Origin: Candidatus Lindowbacteria bacterium RIFCSPLOWO2_12_FULL_62_27
Lineage (GTDB): Bacteria; Lindowbacteria; 2-12-FULL-62-27
Direction: 5' to 3'
DNA length: 64,000 bases
NCBI GenBank assembly: GCA_001784175.1
Contig: MFPR01000004.1
Coordinates: forward strand, 434,001 to 498,000
The translations under genes and the position numbers were made by a program. Positions within the stretch are counted from its first letter, which is position 1. Every line of letters starts with the position of its first letter. Shown here one piece after another: positions 11,570 to 44,065 of this stretch. Below the pieces are notes generated by a model. That model worked only from the letters and a program-made list of their open reading frames with translations, did no database searches and had not been told where the DNA came from.

Positions 11570-12557
11570 CGCCGCCGCTCCGGATCTCAGCATTTCGATT
11601 CTCACGTGGAATACCCGCGCCTGCCTGAAAGCGTGTCTGGACTCGATCCGCCGCCACACGCATGAGATCCGGTATGAAATCATCGTCGTCGACAACGGCT
11701 CCACGGACGGCGCGTTTGAGATGCTCAAGCAGGAGTACCCAGGGGTGCGCGCGATCCGGCATGAGGAGAATCTGGGATTCACCGCCGGCAACAACGTCGC
11801 CCTGCGCGCGGCGCGCGGCCGATACATCCTGCTGCTCAACAGCGATACCGTTGTCCGCGAAGGGTGTCTGGACCTCTGGATCCGCCTCATGGAGGGCGAT
11901 CCGGCGGTGGGCGTGTCCGCGCCGAAGATGTTTTACCCGGACGGACGGCTGTACCTTTCGATCCATCCGCGTTTTCCGGATCCGCTGTGCTGTCTGTCGG
12001 AGCGATCCATCCTGACGGAACTCTGCCCGCGTTCCGGATGGGTTGAACATTTCCGCCGCCGGTACTTTTACACGGCCGAATCCGACTATGCCTCCGACCG
12101 CGACATCGCGTGGGGGATCGGCGCCGCGCTCATGCTGAGGCGCGCCGCGGTGGAGGCGACGGGGCTGTTGGACGTGGGATTTTTCGCGTTCTTCGAGGAA
12201 ATCGACTACTGCCTGCGGGCGCGGGCGGCCGGCTGGAGGCTCCGATATTACCATCAGCCGGAAGTGATCCACATTTCCGCCGGAAGCCTCCGGCAGGACT
12301 ATGACCGCATCACGCACATCTGGCATGCCAGCCGGTTTTACTTTTACCGGAAACATTTTTCGGCGCCGGCCATGTTCGCGCTCAAGGCCCTGACGGCCAC
12401 CGGGATTGTGATCCGGCTGATCAAACTGCTGTTTCGAATCCGATGGGTGTCGACCGCAGGGTCAGAGTGGCGCGGCACGTTCAAAACGTACGTCCGCATT
12501 CTCCTCATGAGCGTGTTGTACCCCCTCTTTGGACCCCGCGGGAAATCCAAATCCTGA
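11559..12557 (+). CDS. Family 2 glycosyltransferase (rhamnosyltransferase-like)
   Basis: A 332-residue GT2 enzyme of the WbbL/rhamnosyltransferase-like type. Motifs in order are LSISILTWNTRACLKAC, VDNGSTDG, NLGFTAGNN, LLLNSDTVV (metal site) and FFAFFEEIDYCLRARAAGW. The C-terminal 60 residues include a hydrophobic or basic stretch (ALKALTATGIVIRLIKLL) that may associate with the membrane. The start ATG (11559) overlaps the previous gene's stop by 11 bases and has CTCCGGGG upstream. The 3' end overlaps the convergent 12462-14570 gene by 96 bases, which is unusual. It is the last gene of the kdsB operon. Confidence 0.83.
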   Translation: MESDAAAPDLSISILTWNTRACLKACLDSIRRHTHEIRYEIIVVDNGSTDGAFEMLKQEYPGVRAIRHEENLGFTAGNNVALRAARGRYILLLNSDTVVREGCLDLWIRLMEGDPAVGVSAPKMFYPDGRLYLSIHPRFPDPLCCLSERSILTELCPRSGWVEHFRRRYFYTAESDYASDRDIAWGIGAALMLRRAAVEATGLLDVGFFAFFEEIDYCLRARAAGWRLRYYHQPEVIHISAGSLRQDYDRITHIWHASRFYFYRKHFSAPAMFALKALTATGIVIRLIKLLFRIRWVSTAGSEWRGTFKTYVRILLMSVLYPLFGPRGKSKS

Positions 12558-14570
12558 GACAATCGCAGCCTCGCCCCAGCGCCCCGCATACTTTGAACTG
12601 GCGGACGCCAACGCCTCATCACGGGATTTCCCCTCCTTGAATTTCTCCAGCAAGCCCTCCAGGTACTCGGCGATCCGGACGGCCGCGCGGCCGTCCTGAA
12701 AGGGGTCCTCTTGGGACATGGTGGGGAAGATCCTGCCGAAGTCCGGCTGGGCGGACGGATCCCGGCGATACTGGTCAAGGGCCTTCCAGAGGTCCTCCCA
12801 CGTTTCGTAAACGACCCGCGGGGACCATCGATATTCCGGCCGGTCATGCACACTTTCAAGATCGAGATAGACGGTCCTGCATCCGGAAAGAATGGCCTCC
12901 ATGGCCGCCGTGCCGGTAAAAAGAAATCCGACCGTCACGTCCGCCGCCTGCGCCGCCTCGGTCGGCAATAGATCCGTGACCACCGTCCCCTCATCCAGAA
13001 ACAGGCACCGCCCCGTCGCCCGGGCCTGATCCGCCAGCGACCGGATGTTCGGCAGGCGCTGAAACAGGGTCCGCGGGTATCCCGGTTTGATGATGAGCCC
13101 CAGCGCCGGGTCCTCCATCACCGCGGTCAGAAACTTCCGGTAGAGGTCCTCCGTTCGGCGGTTCGAGATGGGAAAGAGACGGTTGGCCCATGAGTTCTCA
13201 TCGAAAAAACAGACGACAAACTTCGCGCCTGCACTCATGAGCCGTTCCCGGTGCTGTCGGGATCTGTCCCTGACCAGCGGGAAGGCCTGGTCGGTGATGT
13301 ATCCGCAAAACACCAGCCGGCCAACAACCGATTCCATGCCGCGCAGGACATCCAGATAATACGGGCCAAACGCGAAATAGACATCCCGGCATACCGCAAG
13401 CAGGATGGCCGCGAAATTATGGACCGAAAACTGGTATCCGACCGTGACGCCGCCCGTGGATTTAACGGCCAGATGAAAGGGGATGGTGTCAATACTGAAG
13501 TCGTCGATGTCCACATGAATTTTCACACCATATCGCTCCACAAACTCCACCCATCGGGCATAATGGCGCACGAAATCGATAAACTGGTCCAGATAAAAAC
13601 CGGAGACAGGCTTCCCTCGCGCAAGCGACCTGATCACAAGCCCCGCGATGCGGACATTCCATTTCAGAATCATGAGCGCGCTCCGCGGACCCGGACGGTG
13701 GATCGGAACGCGGCAGTCCCGGCGGGCCCGTGGAGAAAGGGCAACAAATTCCATGTTCTCCGCCATCATGGATTCGACCATGTCCGCCGTCACCGGATGA
13801 TCCGATCGGTTGAAACAAATCATCACGCGGGAGCGGGGAACCACCGGCGGGATCGCCCAGAAAAAATCGCTTCGAATGGATGGATCGAAGGAAACGCGCT
13901 TGCCGTTGAAATTGGCCGCAAGAATCGGTCCCGCGGGCCGACCCTTACCGCCCGGCGCGCGGCGCGCCACCAGCCCCCGGACGGAAAGGACGGGCCAAAT
14001 GAATCGAGCGAGAATACGCGTCCACCGGCGCAGCGCGTGCACGGGGTGGGCATAGGTTTCAACGTGCACGCCCTGCCGGCCGGCCGCACGCGCCAGTTCC
14101 CGCGAGAAAAAGTGAGACAGCAAAAAGACGTTGGCGTGCGTCTCCATCGCAGGTTGAGTCCGTGCGTGCGCGGCGATGGCGTGGATGAACGCGTTGTATG
14201 TCATCAGCGTCGGTTGGATTTTCTTTTTCAGGTGCAAATGGATTTCAGGTTTTCCGAATCGGTCGGAAAAATAACCTGTTAGAACGTCCCTCGAAAACGA
14301 GGTCTTTGCAATCTCGGTGCACAATTCCGACAAGTCTGATCCAAAAACCGTTTCAAAGAGGCCACGCCCTGTCTCCGACCTCAGATCTCCGAGGAAGAAC
14401 TCCATCGGCCGGACGGGCATGGTTCGAAGAAAAAGAGCGTGAAGCATCGGGAAATACAGCCGACAGAAGCGCGGCCGGTCGAAGTAGTATACGCCTGCGC
14501 ACAACTTGCGCCGACGGATGATCCAAAAGACGGCGGAGAGGTTCAGTTCGTCAACGTAGAAGACCTGCAT
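12462..14570 (-). CDS. Large GT-B-like protein of unknown function (paralogue of 30082-32214)
   Basis: A 702-residue protein with no family I can name. It shares extended identity with the 30082-32214 protein: YVDELN at the N-terminus, RSDFFW, PRSRVMICF, FVRHYA, GYITDQAF, FFDENS, LIIKPGYP, LPTEAAQAAD, SQEDPFQDGRAA. The C-terminal run GFLFTGTAAMEAILSGCRTVY looks like the sugar-nucleotide lobe of a GT-B transferase. There is no signal peptide or clear membrane span. It is transcribed alone, divergent from a WbqC gene; the paralogue also sits near a WbqC gene. Its last 25 residues extend beyond the paralogue's end and overlap the convergent GT2 gene by 96 bases. A -10 element lies 6 bases before the ATG. 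Confidence 0.7.
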   Translation of the reverse strand: MQVFYVDELNLSAVFWIIRRRKLCAGVYYFDRPRFCRLYFPMLHALFLRTMPVRPMEFFLGDLRSETGRGLFETVFGSDLSELCTEIAKTSFSRDVLTGYFSDRFGKPEIHLHLKKKIQPTLMTYNAFIHAIAAHARTQPAMETHANVFLLSHFFSRELARAAGRQGVHVETYAHPVHALRRWTRILARFIWPVLSVRGLVARRAPGGKGRPAGPILAANFNGKRVSFDPSIRSDFFWAIPPVVPRSRVMICFNRSDHPVTADMVESMMAENMEFVALSPRARRDCRVPIHRPGPRSALMILKWNVRIAGLVIRSLARGKPVSGFYLDQFIDFVRHYARWVEFVERYGVKIHVDIDDFSIDTIPFHLAVKSTGGVTVGYQFSVHNFAAILLAVCRDVYFAFGPYYLDVLRGMESVVGRLVFCGYITDQAFPLVRDRSRQHRERLMSAGAKFVVCFFDENSWANRLFPISNRRTEDLYRKFLTAVMEDPALGLIIKPGYPRTLFQRLPNIRSLADQARATGRCLFLDEGTVVTDLLPTEAAQAADVTVGFLFTGTAAMEAILSGCRTVYLDLESVHDRPEYRWSPRVVYETWEDLWKALDQYRRDPSAQPDFGRIFPTMSQEDPFQDGRAAVRIAEYLEGLLEKFKEGKSRDEALASASSKYAGRWGEAAIVSGFGFPAGSKEGVQHAHEENADVRFERAAPL

Positions 14571-29139: not shown

Positions 29140-30104
29140 GAAACGCGCGCCCCAAGAGAAAACTCGCGCGCCCCCATGTTTTGATCACCGGCGGAGCCGG
29201 CTATCTGGGATCGATTCTCACGCGGCAACTCCTCGATCAGGGCTTCAAGGTCACCGTGCTCGATAATTTCATGTACCGGCAGGACAGCCTGCTGGAAGCA
29301 TGCGCCCATCCCGATTTCGCCGTCGTGCGCGGAGACTGCCGGGACGCGCCGCTCATGAGGTCCAGCCTGAAGGGCGTGGACGTGGTGATTCCCATGGCCG
29401 CGCTCGTGGGCGCGCCCGCGTGCGACCGGGACCGTTCCGCCGCGGTCCGCATCAACCGCGACGCGGTCCGGATGATCTGCAGGGAGATGTCCCCTGCGCA
29501 ATGGCTGCTTTTCCCCACCACCAACAGCGGCTACGGCGTGGGAGAGAACGGCAAGTTCTGCACGGAAGCGTCGCCCCTCCGTCCCATCAGCCTGTACGGG
29601 GTGACGAAGGCCGAGGCGGAGGCGGCGGTGATGGAACGCCGAAACTCGATCAGTTTCCGGCTGGCCACGGTCTTCGGAGTCTCGCCCCGGATGCGGATGG
29701 ACCTTCTGGTGAACGATTTTGTGTGGCGTGCACTGACCGACCGGTATCTGGTGCTGTTCGAAGGCCATTTCAAGAGGAATTACATCCATGTCCGGGACGT
29801 GGCCAAAGTGTTTCTGCACGGACTGAATCGCTTCTATTTCATGAGGGGGCAGGTGTACAACGTGGGCCTGGAGGACGCGAACCTCTCGAAGCGGGAACTC
29901 TGCGAACGGATCCGGGCTGTGATTTCCGATTTTGTCTTTTTCGAATCACCGATCGGGGAGGACGCGGACAAGCGCAATTACATCGTGTCGAACGCCAAAA
30001 TCCTCAAGACCGGGTTCCGGCCGGACTGGGATCTGGACCGGGGAATCCGGGAACTGGTCAAGGCCCATCTCATGCTGGGAAATGTCCGTCACGCCAACGC
30101 CTGA
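29082..30104 (+). CDS. NAD-dependent epimerase/dehydratase (extended SDR)
   Basis: An extended-SDR nucleotide-sugar enzyme of about 340 residues. The Rossmann motif is HVLITGGAGYLGSIL, then VVIPMAALVGAPACD, the catalytic triad region PTTNSGYGVGE and SLYGVTKAEAE (Tyr-x3-Lys), and YNVGLEDANLSK late. It probably epimerises, dehydrates or reduces an NDP-sugar. The start is uncertain: GTG 29082 overlaps the transketolase subunit by 58 bases, and no ATG or GTG occurs between there and the domain start (about residue 32). It lies between the split transketolase and a large GT-B gene. It may act on the product of the transketolase, which is inference. Confidence 0.78.
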   Translation: MDEFSKRRRGVRQKGGGPIRNARPKRKLARPHVLITGGAGYLGSILTRQLLDQGFKVTVLDNFMYRQDSLLEACAHPDFAVVRGDCRDAPLMRSSLKGVDVVIPMAALVGAPACDRDRSAAVRINRDAVRMICREMSPAQWLLFPTTNSGYGVGENGKFCTEASPLRPISLYGVTKAEAEAAVMERRNSISFRLATVFGVSPRMRMDLLVNDFVWRALTDRYLVLFEGHFKRNYIHVRDVAKVFLHGLNRFYFMRGQVYNVGLEDANLSKRELCERIRAVISDFVFFESPIGEDADKRNYIVSNAKILKTGFRPDWDLDRGIRELVKAHLMLGNVRHANA

Positions 30105-32214
30105 AGGCGCAGCCCGACCCGGCGGCGGAACCGGCCGGCGAATCATTTACGTCGATGAGCTGAACGCCTTTTCCGCCGCCTGGCTGGCCCGGCATCGCGG
30201 GACGGTTTCCGGTATCTATTACATCGACGTATCCGGATGGATGAAACGGGTTCTCCCCGTGTTTCGCCGTGTGTTTCTGCGTGGCACGCCCATCCTCCCC
30301 CTTGACTTTTACATGGGCGACATCCGCACGGAACGTGGAGAGAACCTCTTCATCAAGATCTCTTTCGGGGATATCGGAAAATTCCACGGCCGGATGGTCC
30401 GCGACCATCTGGACCACGATCCGCTGTGCCGGATGTTCGCACGCCGGTTCGGCGCGGCCGAAATTTCGCTGTACGTGAAAATAAAAACCATGCGCGCGCT
30501 GCGAAGATACAATTCGTATCTCTACGCCGCCGCCTGGCATGCCCGGTCCCTGCCCGCCAATCCGCCCGCGGACCCCGGCTTCCTCCTCTCTCACTTCTAT
30601 TCCGACCTCCTCGCCGGCCACGCGATGTCGCTCGGCCTGCGGGTGACCGCCTACACAAATTTCTCCCGGCTGTTCTCGCGATGGATCCGGATTCTCAAGC
30701 GACTCCTCTGGCCCGTGCTGTCCCTGCGCGGCCTGACGCAAAAAAACGCCGGCCCGCGCCCGGCCGCGCCCATTCTGGCGGCGGGATTCAACGGCAAGTA
30801 CATCACGTTTGATCCGTCGGTTCGAAGCGATTTTTTCTGGCTCATTCCCTCGTCCCTGCCGAGGTCCAGGGTCATGATCTGCTTCCATCGGCATGACTAC
30901 CCCGTGACCGCCGAGATGGTGGACACGCTGAGGTCGGCCGGCATGAATTTCGTGGCCTTTTCAGAGTCCGCGCGGGTGGATCCCAGGGTACCTCTGTTTT
31001 CTCCCGGCCGGAGGGCCGCGTGGGATCTGGCCGTCTGGAATGCGCGGCTGGCCGTCCGGGTGTTGACGGCGATGTTCAGCGGCGCTGTTTCAAGTTTCTA
31101 TCTTGACTTGTTCGCGGATTTTGTCCGGCACTACGCGTGGTGGGGCGATTTTTTTCGCCGATACGGGGTGAGCGTCTACATCAACATCAACGATGCCTCC
31201 GACGATTCCGTACCCTTTCATCTGGCCCTCAAGGCCGCGGGCGGCGTCAGCGTCAGCTACCAGTTTTCCGCCCACAGCCTCAACCACAGCCCGGAAACCC
31301 TGATCCTGCCGATCTGCCGCGACGTCTTTTTTTCGTTCGGGCCCTATTACCGGCCTCTCCTAGACTCCGTGCATACAGCGATCGGCCACGGCGTCTATAC
31401 GGGTTACATCACCGACCAGGCCTTTGAGTTGGTGAAGGAAAGATCGCGGGGATACCGCGAGCGGCTTCAGCGGGCCGGGGCGAACTTCATTGTCGCATTT
31501 TTCGACGAAAACTCTTCCGATGACCGGATGAGAATGGTTTCCAACCGGAGAATGACCGGGGTTTACCGGCGCTTTCTCGACGCAGTCCTTTCCGACCCCA
31601 CGCTGGGACTCATCCTGAAACCCGGCTATCCGGGCACATTGTTCAAACGCCTGCCCGACATCCGGCCCCTCGTGGATCGCGCCCGTTCGACGGGCCGGTG
31701 CCTCCTTCTGGACGAGGGCGTGGTGGTGACGCGCGTGCTTCCGACGGAAGCCGCCCAGGCGGCGGACCTGGCCGTCGGGTTTCTGTACAGCGGAACAGCG
31801 GCGATGGAGTCCGTCCTCTCGGGCACGCCGACGGTTTATTTTGATTTTGAGAATCTCTTTGATCAGCCCGAGTACCAATGGCCGGCTCGGATCAGCCTCT
31901 CCGAGGCCCCAAGTGCCGGCGTCTCCGACGCCGGCCGGATCGTCTTCAACACGTGGGAGGAACTTTGGACGGCCATCCAGTCATTTCGGCGGGAGGCCCG
32001 GTCACGGCCGGATTTGAGGCGGACGATTCCTTTTCTTTCGCAGAAAGATCCCTTTCAGGACGGGCGGGCGGCGGAGCGCATGGGCGAGTATCTGTCGTCG
32101 CTCCTTATGTGCCTCGAACGGGAAGAGCCGGCGGCCGGGGCCGTGGCGTGGGCGAACCGGAAATTTTCGGAGAAATGGGGCGCGGACAAAATCGTTTCGC
32201 GTGCCGTCAGGTGA
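30082..32214 (+). CDS. Large GT-B-like protein (paralogue of 12462-14570) with an in-frame repeat insertion
   Basis: A 710-residue paralogue of the 12462-14570 protein, sharing YVDELN, RSDFFW, PRSRVMICF, GYITDQAF, FFDENSSDD, LILKPGYPGTLFKRLP, LPTEAAQAAD, VGFLYSGTAAMESVLSG and QKDPFQDGRAAERM. The C-terminal part looks like a GT-B nucleotide-sugar lobe; function otherwise unknown. ATG 30082 lies about 12 codons before the first conserved residues region and overlaps the epimerase end by 23 bases. Residues 604-619 (ISLSEAPSAGVSDAGR) are absent from the paralogue, which runs WSPRVVYETWEDLW where this protein has WPAR, the insert, then IVFNTWEELW. The insert is encoded by a copy of the double-hairpin repeat. 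The stop overlaps the convergent GT2 gene by 8 bases. Confidence 0.72.
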   Translation: MSVTPTPEGAARPGGGTGRRIIYVDELNAFSAAWLARHRGTVSGIYYIDVSGWMKRVLPVFRRVFLRGTPILPLDFYMGDIRTERGENLFIKISFGDIGKFHGRMVRDHLDHDPLCRMFARRFGAAEISLYVKIKTMRALRRYNSYLYAAAWHARSLPANPPADPGFLLSHFYSDLLAGHAMSLGLRVTAYTNFSRLFSRWIRILKRLLWPVLSLRGLTQKNAGPRPAAPILAAGFNGKYITFDPSVRSDFFWLIPSSLPRSRVMICFHRHDYPVTAEMVDTLRSAGMNFVAFSESARVDPRVPLFSPGRRAAWDLAVWNARLAVRVLTAMFSGAVSSFYLDLFADFVRHYAWWGDFFRRYGVSVYININDASDDSVPFHLALKAAGGVSVSYQFSAHSLNHSPETLILPICRDVFFSFGPYYRPLLDSVHTAIGHGVYTGYITDQAFELVKERSRGYRERLQRAGANFIVAFFDENSSDDRMRMVSNRRMTGVYRRFLDAVLSDPTLGLILKPGYPGTLFKRLPDIRPLVDRARSTGRCLLLDEGVVVTRVLPTEAAQAADLAVGFLYSGTAAMESVLSGTPTVYFDFENLFDQPEYQWPARISLSEAPSAGVSDAGRIVFNTWEELWTAIQSFRREARSRPDLRRTIPFLSQKDPFQDGRAAERMGEYLSSLLMCLEREEPAAGAVAWANRKFSEKWGADKIVSRAVR
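31888..31940 (+). repeat. Double-hairpin repeat, copy A (in-frame inside a gene)
   Basis: Hairpin 1 is GCCTC (31895-31899), loop TCC, GAGGC (31903-31907). A CCCAAGT spacer follows. Hairpin 2 is GCCGGCGTC (31915-31923), loop TCC, GACGCCGGC (31927-31935). CGGAT occurs at both ends. Comparison with the paralogous gene shows a 48-base (16-codon) insertion at 31891-31938 that keeps the reading frame. Confidence 0.85.
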
Positions 32215-33286
32215 CGTTGGTTGGATTCGTGACGGCTCTGTAGACGGGCAGAAAGTCGTTGTGATAGACGCAGGTCGGCCGCGCGAGGTCATTCAACGAC
32301 AATTCGACAGCGCTCGGCGGGATGAAAGAAAATAAACGGTGCCCGGTCTTCAGCCGGCCCAGCATGCGCCGCAACTTCTCCCGGGCGCGGGCGCGGAATC
32401 CATTGAATCGTTGTGGCGCATACAGCCTGTCCCATTCGTGGGTTAAATGCCTTCGCACCACCCACCACAGATACTTTTTCGCGATCTCGTCCCCTTCACG
32501 GATCGACAGACCATCCTGGCGGGCCAGCTCTTCCGCCAGACAGCGCCGAACTCCATCGCTCTCCTCCCGCCAGCGGGGTGTGCTGTACCGTTCGAAGGGT
32601 TCCTGCGCGGCGAGAACAGAGTCCTGCCCGGGATGCGCCTGACACAGCTTGTAGAGTTTGTCCAGACGCTTGACCTTGCCGCGGATGACGGGAATACACG
32701 TGGTCAGGAGCTCGCCGAACCAGTTTCCAAGCCCGAATTCGATCGTCCGGGCGTATCCGTCCCGGATGTCTTCCGTCCGGTGGATCGAGTTTCCTGTAGC
32801 AAACCAATGGCTCATGAAACGGCCGAACCGGCCGGCGCCGGTGTCGTCTTCGATGTCAGCATACTCATAATGAACCATCCACTGGAACCGCCCATGGGCA
32901 CGGCCGGAATCGAGCCCGAACATGAGACAGAGGCCGTGCGCGACCCGGTACGCCGGATGCCGGTCCAGAAAATCCATGCAGAGATCCATCGTTTCAGGCA
33001 CGTAAAAATCGTCGTCGGCGGCGTACATGCAATAGGGGGTCCGGACATGCTCCAGTCCCCTGGCGATGCAATCGTTGAACGAGGCCCCCGGTTGGGCGAG
33101 ATGGGTCACGTTCAGCCGTTCGCGATACCTCCGGATCACGGAACCGATCGCGTCAAACGGTTCCGGATCGCTGGCATCCGAAATGACGATCGGATGCGAA
33201 AACGCCGCGGATGCATAATAGGTCAGGAACCGCGACAGGAACTGCGCGCGATTCCGCGTTGAAACCACAAGGGTCAACCGTTCCAT
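32207..33286 (-). CDS. Glycosyltransferase, GT2-like (TIGR00180 type), paralogue of 42862-43953
   Basis: A 359-residue GT-A enzyme: LTLVVSTRNRAQFLSRFLTYY, IVISDASDPEPFDAI, CMYAADDDFYVPETMDLCMDFL (metal-binding acidic cluster) and IHRTEDIRDGYARTIE. It shares extended near-identity with the 42862-43953 protein (for example GRFMSHWFATGNSIHRTED and LSLNDLARPT), so one gene is a duplicate of the other; divergence concentrates in a few patches. ATG 33286 is chosen because the paralogue aligns from here and a promoter's -10 ends 9 bases upstream. It is divergent from a WbqC gene and converges with the large GT-B gene (8-base overlap). Likely cytoplasmic-face glycan assembly. Confidence 0.8.
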   Translation of the reverse strand: MERLTLVVSTRNRAQFLSRFLTYYASAAFSHPIVISDASDPEPFDAIGSVIRRYRERLNVTHLAQPGASFNDCIARGLEHVRTPYCMYAADDDFYVPETMDLCMDFLDRHPAYRVAHGLCLMFGLDSGRAHGRFQWMVHYEYADIEDDTGAGRFGRFMSHWFATGNSIHRTEDIRDGYARTIEFGLGNWFGELLTTCIPVIRGKVKRLDKLYKLCQAHPGQDSVLAAQEPFERYSTPRWREESDGVRRCLAEELARQDGLSIREGDEIAKKYLWWVVRRHLTHEWDRLYAPQRFNGFRARAREKLRRMLGRLKTGHRLFSFIPPSAVELSLNDLARPTCVYHNDFLPVYRAVTNPTNVT

Positions 33287-33354: not shown

Positions 33355-34134
33355 ATGCCAGTCGAATCGACGCATCCCTTCATTCTGACGGCGCACCAAC
33401 CCGTGTATCTGCCGTGGCTGGGGCTCATGCACAAAATCGCGCTGTCGGACATGTTCTGCCTGTTTGATGACGTGCAGTACTTGAAAAAGGACTGGATGAA
33501 TCGAAACAGGATCAAGACGGCCAACGGCCCGGTCTGGCTGACCGTGCCGGTTCTGAGCAGGGACCATTACCATTTGAAATGCAGGGACGTGAGGATCCAT
33601 GCCGCCCTGCCGTGGCGGAGGAAACACTGGCGTTCGATTCTGAACGCGTACCGGAGCGCTCCCTTCTTCAGGAGATACGCCGATTTTTTTGAAGACCTCT
33701 ATTCAAAGGAATGGACGCATCTCGCGGATTTGAATCAACATATCCTCCGGTATCTGCTCGACGCCTTTTCGATCAAAGTGGCTTGGGTTCGGGCGTCCGA
33801 CTGTTCTTTTGACGGAAAGGGGTCTGATCTCGTGCTGGACATGTGCCGCCGCCTGAATGCGGACATCTATGTGTTCGGCGCCTTGGGCCGAACCTACGCG
33901 CGGGTGGAGGATTTTGAAAAGGCCGGAATATCCGTTTATTTCCAGGACTATCGGCACCCCTCCTATCCGCAGCTCGGGGGGCAATTCTCGCCGTCCATGA
34001 GCGCGATCGATCTTCTCTTTAATCACGGCCCGGCCTCCTTCGAGATTTTGATGGAAGGCAATCACAGCCGGGAACACCTCGTCCGCGCCGCCGGGGTTCT
34101 GCCCCTGACGGAAGCCGGGGCGGGACGCCCATGA
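33355..34134 (+). CDS. WbqC-family protein (second copy)
   Basis: A 259-residue WbqC-like protein: FILTAHQPVYLPWLGLMHKIALSD, DDVQYLKKDWMNRNRIKT, WLTVPVLS, and HPSYPQLGGQFSPSMSAIDLLFNHGP. It has the same domain as the 14673-15518 protein without the N-terminal extension, supporting a late start for the family. It heads a nonulosonic-acid-type operon (epimerase, DegT aminotransferase, NeuB, acetyltransferase). The family is recurrent in O-antigen and flagellin-glycosylation loci; chemistry unproven. The stop overlaps the next ATG by 4 bases. Confidence 0.8.
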   Translation: MPVESTHPFILTAHQPVYLPWLGLMHKIALSDMFCLFDDVQYLKKDWMNRNRIKTANGPVWLTVPVLSRDHYHLKCRDVRIHAALPWRRKHWRSILNAYRSAPFFRRYADFFEDLYSKEWTHLADLNQHILRYLLDAFSIKVAWVRASDCSFDGKGSDLVLDMCRRLNADIYVFGALGRTYARVEDFEKAGISVYFQDYRHPSYPQLGGQFSPSMSAIDLLFNHGPASFEILMEGNHSREHLVRAAGVLPLTEAGAGRP

Positions 34135-35018
34135 GAATCCTGGTCACCGGCGCCGGAGGCTATTTGGGAAGCGCCTGCGTGGGCCATCTTGCCGGGCGCC
34201 ATGAAGTGACGGCGGGCGGGCACAGTTCACCGGAACGGCCGGACGCCGTCATTCACATGGCGTTTCGATTTCCTAAAGACAACTCCGCGCGGGCCGAACT
34301 TGAAAACCAAACCGCGTTGCGCGCCATGATTGATTTCTGCATGGCCCGGAATGTTTCGCGATTCATTTTTCCGTCCACGTATGCGGTGTATCCCTGCAGC
34401 GAGCGGACCGCGGTGGAATCGGACGCCCTGTTTCCAGAATCCGAATACGCCCGCGGAAAGGGGACGGCGGAAAGGATGCTGCAGGAGTCCGGCCTTCCCC
34501 ATGTGATCCTTCGTCTGACGCACGTCTATGGCCGGGGCACCGGCGTCGGCGACGAGGGCGGCGTCATCCTGCAGTGGCTGGATCGGGCCATGCATGGAAA
34601 GGACATCGAAGTGATCGACGGAGAAACCATCGAGCGGGACTATATCCACCTTCGTGACGTCCTGGCGGCCGTCGAGGCGTGCCTTGAAAGAGAGCCGGCC
34701 ATGGGACGCGTCTACAACATCGGAAGCGGCGCCGGCGTGACGCTTCTGGATCTCGCGCGACAGATCGCGCGGATCGCCGGCGGGGAAACCGGCCGGGACG
34801 TTTCGGTGCGGAATCGCCGGAGCGCAACCCCCGTGATCTGGCGGCGGCGCGTGGACCTCCGGCGGGCGGAGGAGGAATTGGGCTTTTATCCGCGGGTCAA
34901 CCTCGTGGAAGGCTTGAAAGAGATGGCGGCGGCGCGCACGACGGGACTGCCGGATCAGCGCCTCCGGCGCCCCAAGTGCCGGCGTCTCCGACGCCGGCCG
35001 GAGGCGGCCGCAAGATGA
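34131..35018 (+). CDS. NAD-dependent epimerase/dehydratase with repeat-derived C-terminus
   Basis: A 295-residue extended SDR, short for the class. Motifs are RILVTGAGGYLGSACVGHL, AVIHMAFRF, RFIFPSTYAVYPCSE, EYARGKGTAE (Tyr-x3-Lys), THVYGRG and RVYNIGSGAGVTLLDLARQIA. It probably converts an NDP-hexose (4-epimerase, dehydratase or reductase). The final 20 or so residues, a run of Arg, Pro and Lys, are encoded by copy B of the double-hairpin repeat (34951-35002) read in another frame, so the natural C-terminus has been replaced. ATGA overlaps at both ends couple it to the WbqC and aminotransferase genes. Confidence 0.78.
   Translation: MRILVTGAGGYLGSACVGHLAGRHEVTAGGHSSPERPDAVIHMAFRFPKDNSARAELENQTALRAMIDFCMARNVSRFIFPSTYAVYPCSERTAVESDALFPESEYARGKGTAERMLQESGLPHVILRLTHVYGRGTGVGDEGGVILQWLDRAMHGKDIEVIDGETIERDYIHLRDVLAAVEACLEREPAMGRVYNIGSGAGVTLLDLARQIARIAGGETGRDVSVRNRRSATPVIWRRRVDLRRAEEELGFYPRVNLVEGLKEMAAARTTGLPDQRLRRPKCRRLRRRPEAAAR
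34951..35002 (+). repeat. Double-hairpin repeat, copy B (gene 3' end)
   Basis: Hairpin 1 has a GCGCC stem strand (34959-34963), loop TCC and GGCGC (34967-34971), changed on both strands compared with copy A (GCCTC/GAGGC). The CCCAAGT spacer and hairpin 2 (GCCGGCGTC, TCC, GACGCCGGC; 34979-34999) match copy A. It begins CGGATCAG and ends CGGCCGGA, just before the epimerase stop and the aminotransferase start. Confidence 0.85.
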
Positions 35019-42363: not shown

Positions 42364-42865
42364 AGGCGGGTTTCAGTCGATAATACAGGAGGGCGAAAGG
42401 TAGCGCCAGCGCGGCCAGACACGCCGCGGACAGGGCGCCGGCCATTGCCCGGATTCTGTCCAACACGAATCCTTTCCATGTCACTTGCCTGAAATGTTTC
42501 ACCGGCGCGTGGGAGACGATCCTTGAAACGCCGGCCGCCGTTAAAAAACGGATGATCCCCCCATATCCGCGGCCGTCCACATGGTTGTACGGCACATAGG
42601 CTTCATCGATCCGCTCCCGCCGGAGCCTCTCCAGACACAGCCGGTTCAATCCTCCGTAGGTCATCCACGGCCGGTCATACAGCAGAAAATCAGCTTCCAC
42701 ACCTTCCGATGCCTTGCGGATCTCCTTTTCCGCGGATGGCTGGACAATCCAGATCCACCGGACGCCAGCGTCTCCGACGCCGGCCGGATACCGCACCTCT
42801 TTGAGATACCGAAACAGAGCCAGACACTGCGACAGCGGGGCGGACCGGATCAGCAGGATGTTCAT
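42353..42865 (-). CDS. Stand-alone X-domain protein, possibly membrane-anchored, with in-frame repeat
   Basis: A 170-residue protein of unknown function. Residues 1-120 (starting MNILLIRSAPLSQ, with LRRERIDEAYVPYNHVDGRGYG) match the X domain in the radical SAM protein at 60087 (NILILRSTRMWH; YSNTDGRSFENV) and in 1728-4010. The fold resembles the N-terminal lobe of heptosyltransferase-like GT-B proteins. Residues about 140-165 are hydrophobic (AGALSAACLAALALPFALLYY), probably one membrane segment with a basic end. Eleven residues (YPAGVGDAGVR, about 26-36) come from repeat copy D and are absent from the relatives. The start overlaps the upstream glycosyltransferase stop by 4 bases. Confidence 0.6.
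   Translation of the reverse strand: MNILLIRSAPLSQCLALFRYLKEVRYPAGVGDAGVRWIWIVQPSAEKEIRKASEGVEADFLLYDRPWMTYGGLNRLCLERLRRERIDEAYVPYNHVDGRGYGGIIRFLTAAGVSRIVSHAPVKHFRQVTWKGFVLDRIRAMAGALSAACLAALALPFALLYYRLKPAFRR
42758..42789 (-). repeat. Double-hairpin repeat, copy D (truncated, in-frame inside a gene)
   Basis: Only hairpin 2 remains: GCCAGCGTC (42764-42772), loop TCC, GACGCCGGC (42776-42784), with one A-C mismatch, flanked by CCGGA and CCGGAT. Read on the gene's strand it adds 33 bases (11 codons) between CGG codons, keeping the frame of the X-domain protein. Confidence 0.75.
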
Positions 42866-43953
42866 GGGACGGTTGCTTCGACAGGACGGGTCACGGCTTC
42901 ACAGACGGGCGCGAAGTCGTCGTGATAAACGGAGGTCGGCCGAGCGAGGTCGTTCAACGACAATTCGACGGCGTCCGTCGGGATGAAAGATAACATGCGG
43001 TGGGCGGATTTCAGCCGTCCCAGCATGCGCCGCAACGTCTCCCGGGAGGAGGCGCGAAATCCGTTAAACCGGTGCGGCGCATAGAATCTGTCCCACTCCC
43101 GGCTCAAATACTTTCCCAGCATCCACCAAAGGTATTTTTTCGCAGTCTCTTCCCCTTCCCGGACCGACATACCGTCCTGGCGGGCCAGTTCCTCCGCGAG
43201 GCAACGCTGGACTCCCTCGCACTCGCCCCGCCAGGGGGCTGCGCAGAACCATTCGAAGAGTCCGGGTTCCTGCGAGCCGCGGGCTGAGACCTGGCCGGGA
43301 TGGGCCTGACACAGTTTGTAGAGTTTCTCCAGACGCTTGACCTTGCCGCGGATGACGGGAATGCATGTGGTCAGGATCTCGGCGAACTCATATCCAAGCT
43401 TGCGTTCAATCACGCGGGTGTATCCGTCCCGGACGTCTTCCGTCCGGTGGATCGAGTTTCCGGTCGCAAACCAATGGCTCATGAAGCGGCCTAACCGGCC
43501 GGCGCCGGTGTCGTCTTCGATGTCGGCGTACTCATAATGCGTCATCCACTGGAACCGGCCATGGGTCTGGCCGGAATCAAGCCCGAACATGAGGCAGAGG
43601 CCATGCGCGACCCGGTACGCCGGATGCCGGTCCAGAAAATCCATGCAGAGATCCATCGTTTCAGGCACGTAAAAGTCGTCGTCGGACGCCAGCATGCAGT
43701 AGGGCGTCCGGGCCTGCGCCAGGCCCTGCGCCAGGCAAATGTTGGCGGAGGCCCGCGGATGGGCGAGATGGGTCACGTTCAATTGATCGCGATATCGCCG
43801 GATCATGGAAACGATGGCCTCAAAAGGTTCGGGGTCGCTCGCGTCTGAAATAATGATGGGATGTGAAAAGGCGCGGCCCGCGTAATACGCAAGAAACCGG
43901 GACAGGAACTGTACGCGGTTCCGCGTGGTCACCACCATGGTCAACCTGGGCAT
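42862..43953 (-). CDS. Glycosyltransferase, GT2-like (TIGR00180 type), paralogue of 32207-33286
   Basis: A 363-residue GT-A enzyme almost colinear with the 32207-33286 product: LTMVVTTRNRVQFLSRFLAYY, IIISDASDPEPFEAI, CMLASDDDFYVPETMD, GRFMSHWFATGNSIHRTED and LSLNDLARPTSVYHDDF. ATG 43953 is chosen because the paralogue aligns from there and GGAGG lies 9 bases upstream; a longer frame to 44028 is encoded by the repeat copies at 43967-44065. It lies between pseB and the X-domain gene. The two paralogues may add the same sugar to different acceptors or be a recent duplication for repeat-unit diversification. Confidence 0.8.
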   Translation of the reverse strand: MPRLTMVVTTRNRVQFLSRFLAYYAGRAFSHPIIISDASDPEPFEAIVSMIRRYRDQLNVTHLAHPRASANICLAQGLAQARTPYCMLASDDDFYVPETMDLCMDFLDRHPAYRVAHGLCLMFGLDSGQTHGRFQWMTHYEYADIEDDTGAGRLGRFMSHWFATGNSIHRTEDVRDGYTRVIERKLGYEFAEILTTCIPVIRGKVKRLEKLYKLCQAHPGQVSARGSQEPGLFEWFCAAPWRGECEGVQRCLAEELARQDGMSVREGEETAKKYLWWMLGKYLSREWDRFYAPHRFNGFRASSRETLRRMLGRLKSAHRMLSFIPTDAVELSLNDLARPTSVYHDDFAPVCEAVTRPVEATVP

Positions 43954-43966
43954 GTCCGACAGCCTC

Positions 43967-44065
43967 CGGATCAGCCTCTCCGAGGCCTCAAGTGCCGGCG
44001 TCTCGGACCAGCGCCTCCGGCGCCTCAAGTGTCGGAGTCTCCGACTCCGACCCGACGCCGGCTGG
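43967..44065 (-). repeat. Double-hairpin repeat, copies C1 and C2 (one nested in the other)
   Basis: Plus-strand reading: C1 starts CGGATCAG at 43967 with hairpin 1 GCCTC/TCC/GAGGC, spacer CTCAAGT and the left arm GCCGGCGTC (43994-44002). It is then interrupted in its loop by C2 (about 44004-44053) and resumes with the right arm GACGCCGGC (44054-44062). C2 has hairpin 1 GCGCC/TCC/GGCGC and hairpin 2 GTCGGAGTC (44031-44039), TCC, GACTCCGAC (44043-44051), a fully compensated stem different from C1. The block spans the pseB 3' end; the spacer of C1 supplies the pseB stop codon. Confidence 0.85.

Follow-up and report, generated by a model that had tools for sequence, protein, structure and literature searches.

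Host protein, paralogue and the 16-residue insert

The window, the 64,000-nt stretch of contig MFPR01000004.1 of Candidatus Lindowbacteria bacterium RIFCSPLOWO2_12_FULL_62_27 that we analysed, contains a long open reading frame that includes a copy of a 48-nt element (Table 1). The frame of this ORF had a codon score of +157 and the other five frames scored negative, according to our own codon statistic trained on 31 window ORFs. A Pfam scan of the window protein matched no family, and a PDB search with the window protein family gave no match up to E 0.1.

An initial annotation had claimed that this protein carries 16 residues more than its paralogue in the same window, and that a repeat encodes exactly these residues. 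Our results confirm both claims. The protein alignment showed a single clean 16-residue gap, exactly at the repeat, in the paralogue (51% identity) and likewise in the homologue from a related genus, in Candidatus Lindowbacteria nzgw232 (record set JAHFCY; hereafter G001; 43% identity). A distant homologue in genome G003 also lacks the insert, with a gap of 14 residues in a 23%-identical alignment. The loop is hence not common to the homologues from other genera. The border of the window copy is ambiguous by 6 nt, because CGGATC is present at both ends. A single paralogue cannot separate insertion from deletion, so outgroup homologues and other host genes decide, in favour of insertion. The insert may form a flexible loop, as the initial annotation proposed.

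Two pairs of long direct repeats lie at 32229-32896 and 42890-43563 of the window, with identities of 80% and 87% over stretches of 300 nt, and probably represent a duplicated gene. One copy of these repeats adjoins the nested element copies at 43967-44062.

Table 1. Features of the window discussed in the text.
Feature	Position	Strand	Remarks
Host ORF	30082..32214	+	710 aa; ISLSEAPSAGVSDAGR near its end
Element copy A, 48 nt	31888..31935	+	Leader CGGATCA, hairpin 1 (5-bp stem, TCC loop), linker CCCAAGT, hairpin 2 (9-bp stem, TCC loop)
16 inserted codons, ISLSEAPSAGVSDAGR	31891..31938	+	The element's 48 nt shifted by 3
Paralogue without insert (empty site)	12462..14570	-	51% identical to the window protein
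Second full copy, consensus sequence	34951..34998	+	C-terminal tail of ORF 34131-35018, stop 5 codons later
Solitary hairpin 2, partial copy	42764..42784	+	One mismatch in 21
Outer copy, left 37 nt	43967..44003	+	Split by nested copy; right 11 nt at 44052-44062
Nested full copy	44004..44051	+	In TCC loop of outer copy's hairpin 2

Anatomy of the element

The consensus of 45 distinct copies is 48 nt long and consists of CGGRTCA, hairpin 1 (5 bp, loop TCC), CCCAAGT and hairpin 2 (9 bp, loop TCC). The underlying alignment (A2) drew on 47 distinct copies with scores of at least 40, two of which were omitted: L040:1663-1710, split by a nested copy, and L060:1506-1553, with a diverged 5' part. Five folds were computed for single-stranded DNA, from four copies and with both strands of one copy included; each fold contained both hairpins, with z values of -3.5 to -5.0. 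Seven of the 14 hairpin pairs had changed on both sides and 98.6% of the cells were paired. Neither value was reached in any of 500 shuffles, and slid partners were only 22-61% paired. The loop is nearly invariant while the stems covary, and the commonest stem of hairpin 1 differs between the window's own genome (G000) and that of groundwater isolate 1274 (JACQOF; hereafter G002). Conservation drops at both ends of the element, with a residual preference for CGGC before it and CGG after it. Its 48 nt correspond to 16 codons, and five of the six reading frames are open, only frame -2 containing a stop. The inserted residues are small and polar.

Copy number and distribution

The 21-nt core of the element occurred in two exact copies in the window, against a mean of 0.01 expected (up to 3 mismatches allowed). 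Across G000 there were 39 exact cores versus 0 for the reversed control, and 63 left halves with up to 3 mismatches, again versus 0 for the control. Covariance-model matches, which take in partial copies, numbered 74 in G000, 41 in G002, 1 in G001 and 0 in G003 among the 150 candidates scored per genome. The stretches examined, which omit a few places found by the covariance model, contained 92 full-length copies, of which 61 belong to G000 and 31 to G002. Orientation was mixed along contigs; for instance, contig C4 carries eight plus and seven minus copies.

In a collection of 84,980 species, to which the window's own genome possibly does not belong, an exact 25-mer was present only in the record sets of G002 and G001. 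In a separate scan, a degenerate 28-mer was present in 2 of 290 genomes. The element-bearing genomes are three only, two of them less than 90% complete (G001 88%, G002 81%). The element matched no viral contigs, plasmids or phages, and the literature searched contained no description of it. Two left-half copies lie in opposite orientation ~200 bp apart on contig C31 of G000 (L066, at ~1576 and ~1780). They comprise hairpin 1 and the start of hairpin 2, and at ~33 nt their length is also a multiple of three.

Insertion into other proteins

By thresholds of our own choosing, on which the counts depend, 47 of the 92 copies were classed as intragenic, 18 as lying at gene 3' ends and 27 as neither. 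The DNA of the element is conserved across unrelated genes, in several frames, in both orientations and outside genes. Among the intragenic copies, 11 insert-bearing proteins have a homologue spanning the site in the loci examined, with matches to another part of the same locus or to a neighbour gene (L061, L078) left uncounted. A gap of exactly 16 residues was found in seven of these 11 proteins, namely TrmD (3 homologues), glutamyl-tRNA synthetase (GluRS; 2 homologues), squalene/phytoene synthase, an AhpC-like protein in G002 and its G000 orthologue at another site, the window protein, and the protein of L165. The remaining four showed no clean gap of this length: L063 had a gap of 16 plus a separate gap of 1, L100 consists of TPR repeats aligned at 26-28% identity, and the gaps in L156 and L157 were 11 and 12 residues long. 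The in-frame insertion of a mobile palindromic element, proposed for the window protein, is thus supported there and at other places as well.

The two AhpC-like orthologues (L067 in G000, L089 in G002) are 68% identical, and each has its own insert, at a different position and in a different frame. Each shows an empty site where the other has its insert. The two insertions are thus independent events at different places.

The trmD and gltX genes are presumably essential, and neither TrmD nor GluRS has another full-length match in G000. The PDB entries most closely related to them are gapped at the insert, by 16 residues for TrmD and by 15 residues for GluRS. The PDB alignment of squalene synthase breaks around the insert, and those of hexokinase stop before it and are uninformative on this point. 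The insert lay within the best Pfam stretch in 10 of the 30 proteins scanned. An AlphaFold model of TrmD shows it as part of an unstructured region that links a helix to a strand, at low confidence (mean pLDDT 62.6), so that the model carries little weight. In protein searches, SGAPSAGVSDAG-like stretches matched unrelated genes.

Reading frame and probable selection

Because our intragenic class demanded a stop-free element, the absence of the stop frame from that class follows by construction. Our claim about reading frames rests instead on a test in which only the flanks were scored for coding and the element itself was ignored. By their flanks, 34 of the 92 copies lay between coding sequences that agreed in strand and frame; in 5 the two coding flanks shared the strand but not the frame, and in 3 they were on opposite strands. 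Just one flank was coding in 44 copies, and neither was in 6. Hence, among the 39 copies with coding sequence of a single strand on either side, 34 kept the frame, versus one third by chance (P = 5e-12). Frame changes occurred in L052 at 2622, in the window at 34951 and 44004, and in L049 and L097. At the first three of these sites the upstream gene ends within 4-5 codons.

The 34 frame-keeping copies were read in frames +0 (19 copies), -0 (7), +1 (5), -1 (2) and +2 (1). None was read in frame -2, the sole frame with a stop, versus 14-22% predicted (P = 0.0002-0.007), and the arginine-rich frame +2 was represented by its single copy (P = 0.02-0.09). The expected shares were derived from the possible target sites in window genes, with three patterns tested. 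The element lies in sense orientation in 34 of the 47 intragenic copies, and is reversed in 9 of the 34 frame-keeping copies. Together, the keeping of the frame and the absence from the stop frame point to translation through the element and to selection on the outcome.

Nested copies and target sites

In four cases, removal of an inner 48 nt restored an outer copy (scores 41-47 of 48). Each of the four nested copies follows the first base of a hairpin loop, which belongs to hairpin 2 in three cases and to hairpin 1 in one; two of the outer copies (window, L069) belong to one subfamily and may not be independent. No more than one base is ambiguous at these sites, in the window case, so that a target duplication of several bases is absent. 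The nested and the homologue-defined sites gave a net 48 nt and no consistent duplication, and flanking identity at a spacing of 48 was 0-2 nt in 22 of the 92 copies.

Proposed mobilisation of the element

Our results make it likely that the repeat is a mobile but non-autonomous DNA element, exactly 48 nt long, which is present in genes as a translated insert of 16 residues. The enzyme that moves it would act in trans and would recognise the folded single strand, and a Y1 transposase of the IS200/IS605 or RAYT type would be the first candidate. Insertions into genes would often be tolerated, because the length of the element is divisible by three and all but one of the six frames are open. The mRNA would be translated straight through the element, yielding a protein with a 16-residue loop. 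Selection would purge insertions that add a stop and, less strictly, those that are rich in arginine.

The genomes contain 24 Y1_Tnp genes (8 in G000, 6 in G001 and 10 in G002). A model search of 102.5 kb around these genes found no element at the border of any of the 24 loci, and only two full copies in all, several kb from the gene. An immediate neighbourhood of the element and Y1_Tnp genes is therefore not supported. The copy-rich genomes G000 and G002 share two Y1 clades that are missing from the six Y1 genes found in G001, where copies are few. These clades might offer a weak lead to the mobilising enzyme. One of them comprises L176 and the Y1_Tnp proteins of L101 (G000 C41) and L106 (G002 C107), which are 76% identical between genera; the other is the clade of L103.

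An alternative explanation is that the element is mobile but depends on a different enzyme, such as a DEDD or DDE transposase supplied in trans, or spreads by recombination between palindromes. This is a real possibility, if somewhat short of an even one. It would be in agreement with the lack of elements flanking the Y1_Tnp genes, with the absence of a GTAG tag, and with the fact that no strand bias of the kind left by single-strand transposition was seen (judged from orientation within contigs, which is mixed). Moreover, CGTC-type REPs also lack a dedicated transposase in the account given in part of PMC3733652. Conversely, the absence of a target duplication, the two subterminal hairpins and the insertion into hairpin loops match the anatomy of single-strand Y1 transposition, as far as it is outlined in sections of PMC8266576. 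The two Y1 clades also track the copy-rich genomes, although with n=3 and with G001 88% complete.

Alternative roles of the repeat

The hairpins that bind CsrA/RsmA carry GGA loops. Possibly, the copies serve as functional RNA elements that regulate mRNAs or titrate CsrA, as both loops read GGA on the reverse strand. Near-invariant loops on covarying stems and the 18 of 92 copies at gene 3' ends would suit this function, and a CsrA gene is present in G000 (L190, G000:C20:113210-113368). Yet, no CsrA was found in the copy-rich G002 (81% complete), nor in G001. The 34 sense copies among the 47 intragenic ones would present TCC rather than GGA in the mRNA, and no Rfam family matched any copy. We therefore consider an RNA function very unlikely, and a role as CsrA sponge was rejected because G000 alone among G000, G001 and G002 has a CsrA gene.

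A scan of the window gave no Rfam family at the gathering threshold. At L043 572-681, beside the GluRS gene at its 3' end and away from the element, four microRNA-precursor Rfam matches fell far below threshold; this stretch is possibly a long hairpin or a terminator.

The hop elements of some yeast mitochondria are translational bypass elements. If the 48-nt element were likewise removed before or during protein synthesis, as a mini-intron or by bypass, the proteins would lack the 16 residues. Stable hairpins on either strand and copies in presumably essential genes that are apparently present once (trmD, gltX) could be accommodated in this way. An open frame would then be needless, yet none of the 34 copies is read in the stop frame, and reversed copies are tolerated (9 of 34), whereas splicing or bypass signals would be strand-specific. 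Removal is highly improbable on this evidence. An ancestral or convergent low-complexity protein loop, which the small and polar residues found in many loops might suggest, can practically be dismissed, since the same DNA recurs in unrelated genes, in several frames, in both orientations and outside genes, and homologues with empty sites exist.

Implications

Returning to a mobile element that is probably translated within its host genes, one may go further and regard its length and open frames as adaptations to life in genes rather than as luck. The element would then be a protein-compatible unit, fixed at 16 codons and open in five frames. It would move as a folded single strand of DNA, with a preference for C-C-G sites, among them the hairpin loops of other copies of the element, and it would repeatedly add the same short loop to housekeeping enzymes across the whole lineage. 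We regard this extended reading as doubtful. If it were true, the element would be a natural linker-scanning mutagen.

The first reports of in-frame palindromic elements treated them as peculiar to Rickettsia, and subsequent ones described intragenic REPs from a small number of cultured species. Our results add a much smaller, two-hairpin element from an uncultured groundwater lineage. Some of its copies lie in single genes that are presumably essential, and empty sites of 48 nt were resolved for seven proteins. This raises the questions of which enzyme sites tolerate a 16-residue loop, whether the insertions are neutral and which enzyme mobilises the element. It also calls for caution in annotation, as SGAPSAGVSDAG-like stretches signify mobile DNA and not homology.

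Comparison with known systems

The Rickettsia palindromic elements (RPEs) and the Wolbachia palindromic element are dispersed and lie in frame in many unrelated conserved genes, and the RPEs are ~105–150 bp long with 12-bp terminal inverted repeats, according to portions of PMC2229807 and PMC10969869. The initial annotation had likened the window insert to the RPEs. This holds for behaviour, as the 48-nt element is likewise inserted in frame into protein genes, but does not extend to membership: the element is 48 nt versus ~105–150 bp long, and it forms two separate local hairpins, head-to-tail, instead of terminal inverted repeats with one long stem-loop. We found no sequence link between the RPEs and the 48-nt element, which belongs to a different lineage.

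REPs have been found in genes, including those of tRNA synthetases, in Opitutus terrae, Rickettsia conorii and others. They are short stem-loops with compensatory stem changes, and some families have no known transposase, as described in parts of PMC3733652. The 48-nt element resembles them in its short stem-loops with compensatory changes, located inside genes that include a tRNA synthetase. It differs from GTAG REPs in its 5' feet, RTCA and AAGT, with no GTAG beside the stem, and in that no RAYT-type gene is flanked by it (24 Y1_Tnp loci). CGTC REPs have CGTC at one end, a stem of 8-9 bp, a loop of 4-5 nt and an unpaired tail (PMC3733652, in part). In the 48-nt element, by contrast, CGTC lies inside hairpin 2 beside a 3-nt loop and is not terminal, and the stem of hairpin 1 is 5 bp. 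Head-to-tail dimers are absent, under-represented or negligible in the GTAG and CGTC families that the same partial account covers (PMC3733652), whereas the replicating unit here is a fixed head-to-tail pair of unequal hairpins.

REPINs consist of two REPs in inverted orientation, and a Y1-type transposase is believed to mobilise them in trans, as stated in part of PMC3116915. The 48-nt element is also a unit of two hairpin-forming palindromes, but these follow one another in the same direction, and each has a separate stem and a 7-nt leader.

The IS200/IS605 family inserts without target duplication. The 48-nt element shares this feature, as well as its subterminal hairpins and the leader bases 5' of each hairpin, with these insertion sequences, but no transposase gene lies inside it. 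In IS200/IS605 elements a hairpin lies close to either end, and each palindrome is preceded on its 5' side by guide-like bases, as set out in sections of PMC8266576. No parent element sharing the ends of the 48-nt element was found. In contrast to classical MITEs of DDE transposases, the 48-nt element has neither terminal inverted repeats nor a consistent target-site duplication. Hence, the element behaves in a known way but lacks defining features of each of these families. It is smaller than the RPEs, a fixed head-to-tail pair of hairpins, and untagged.
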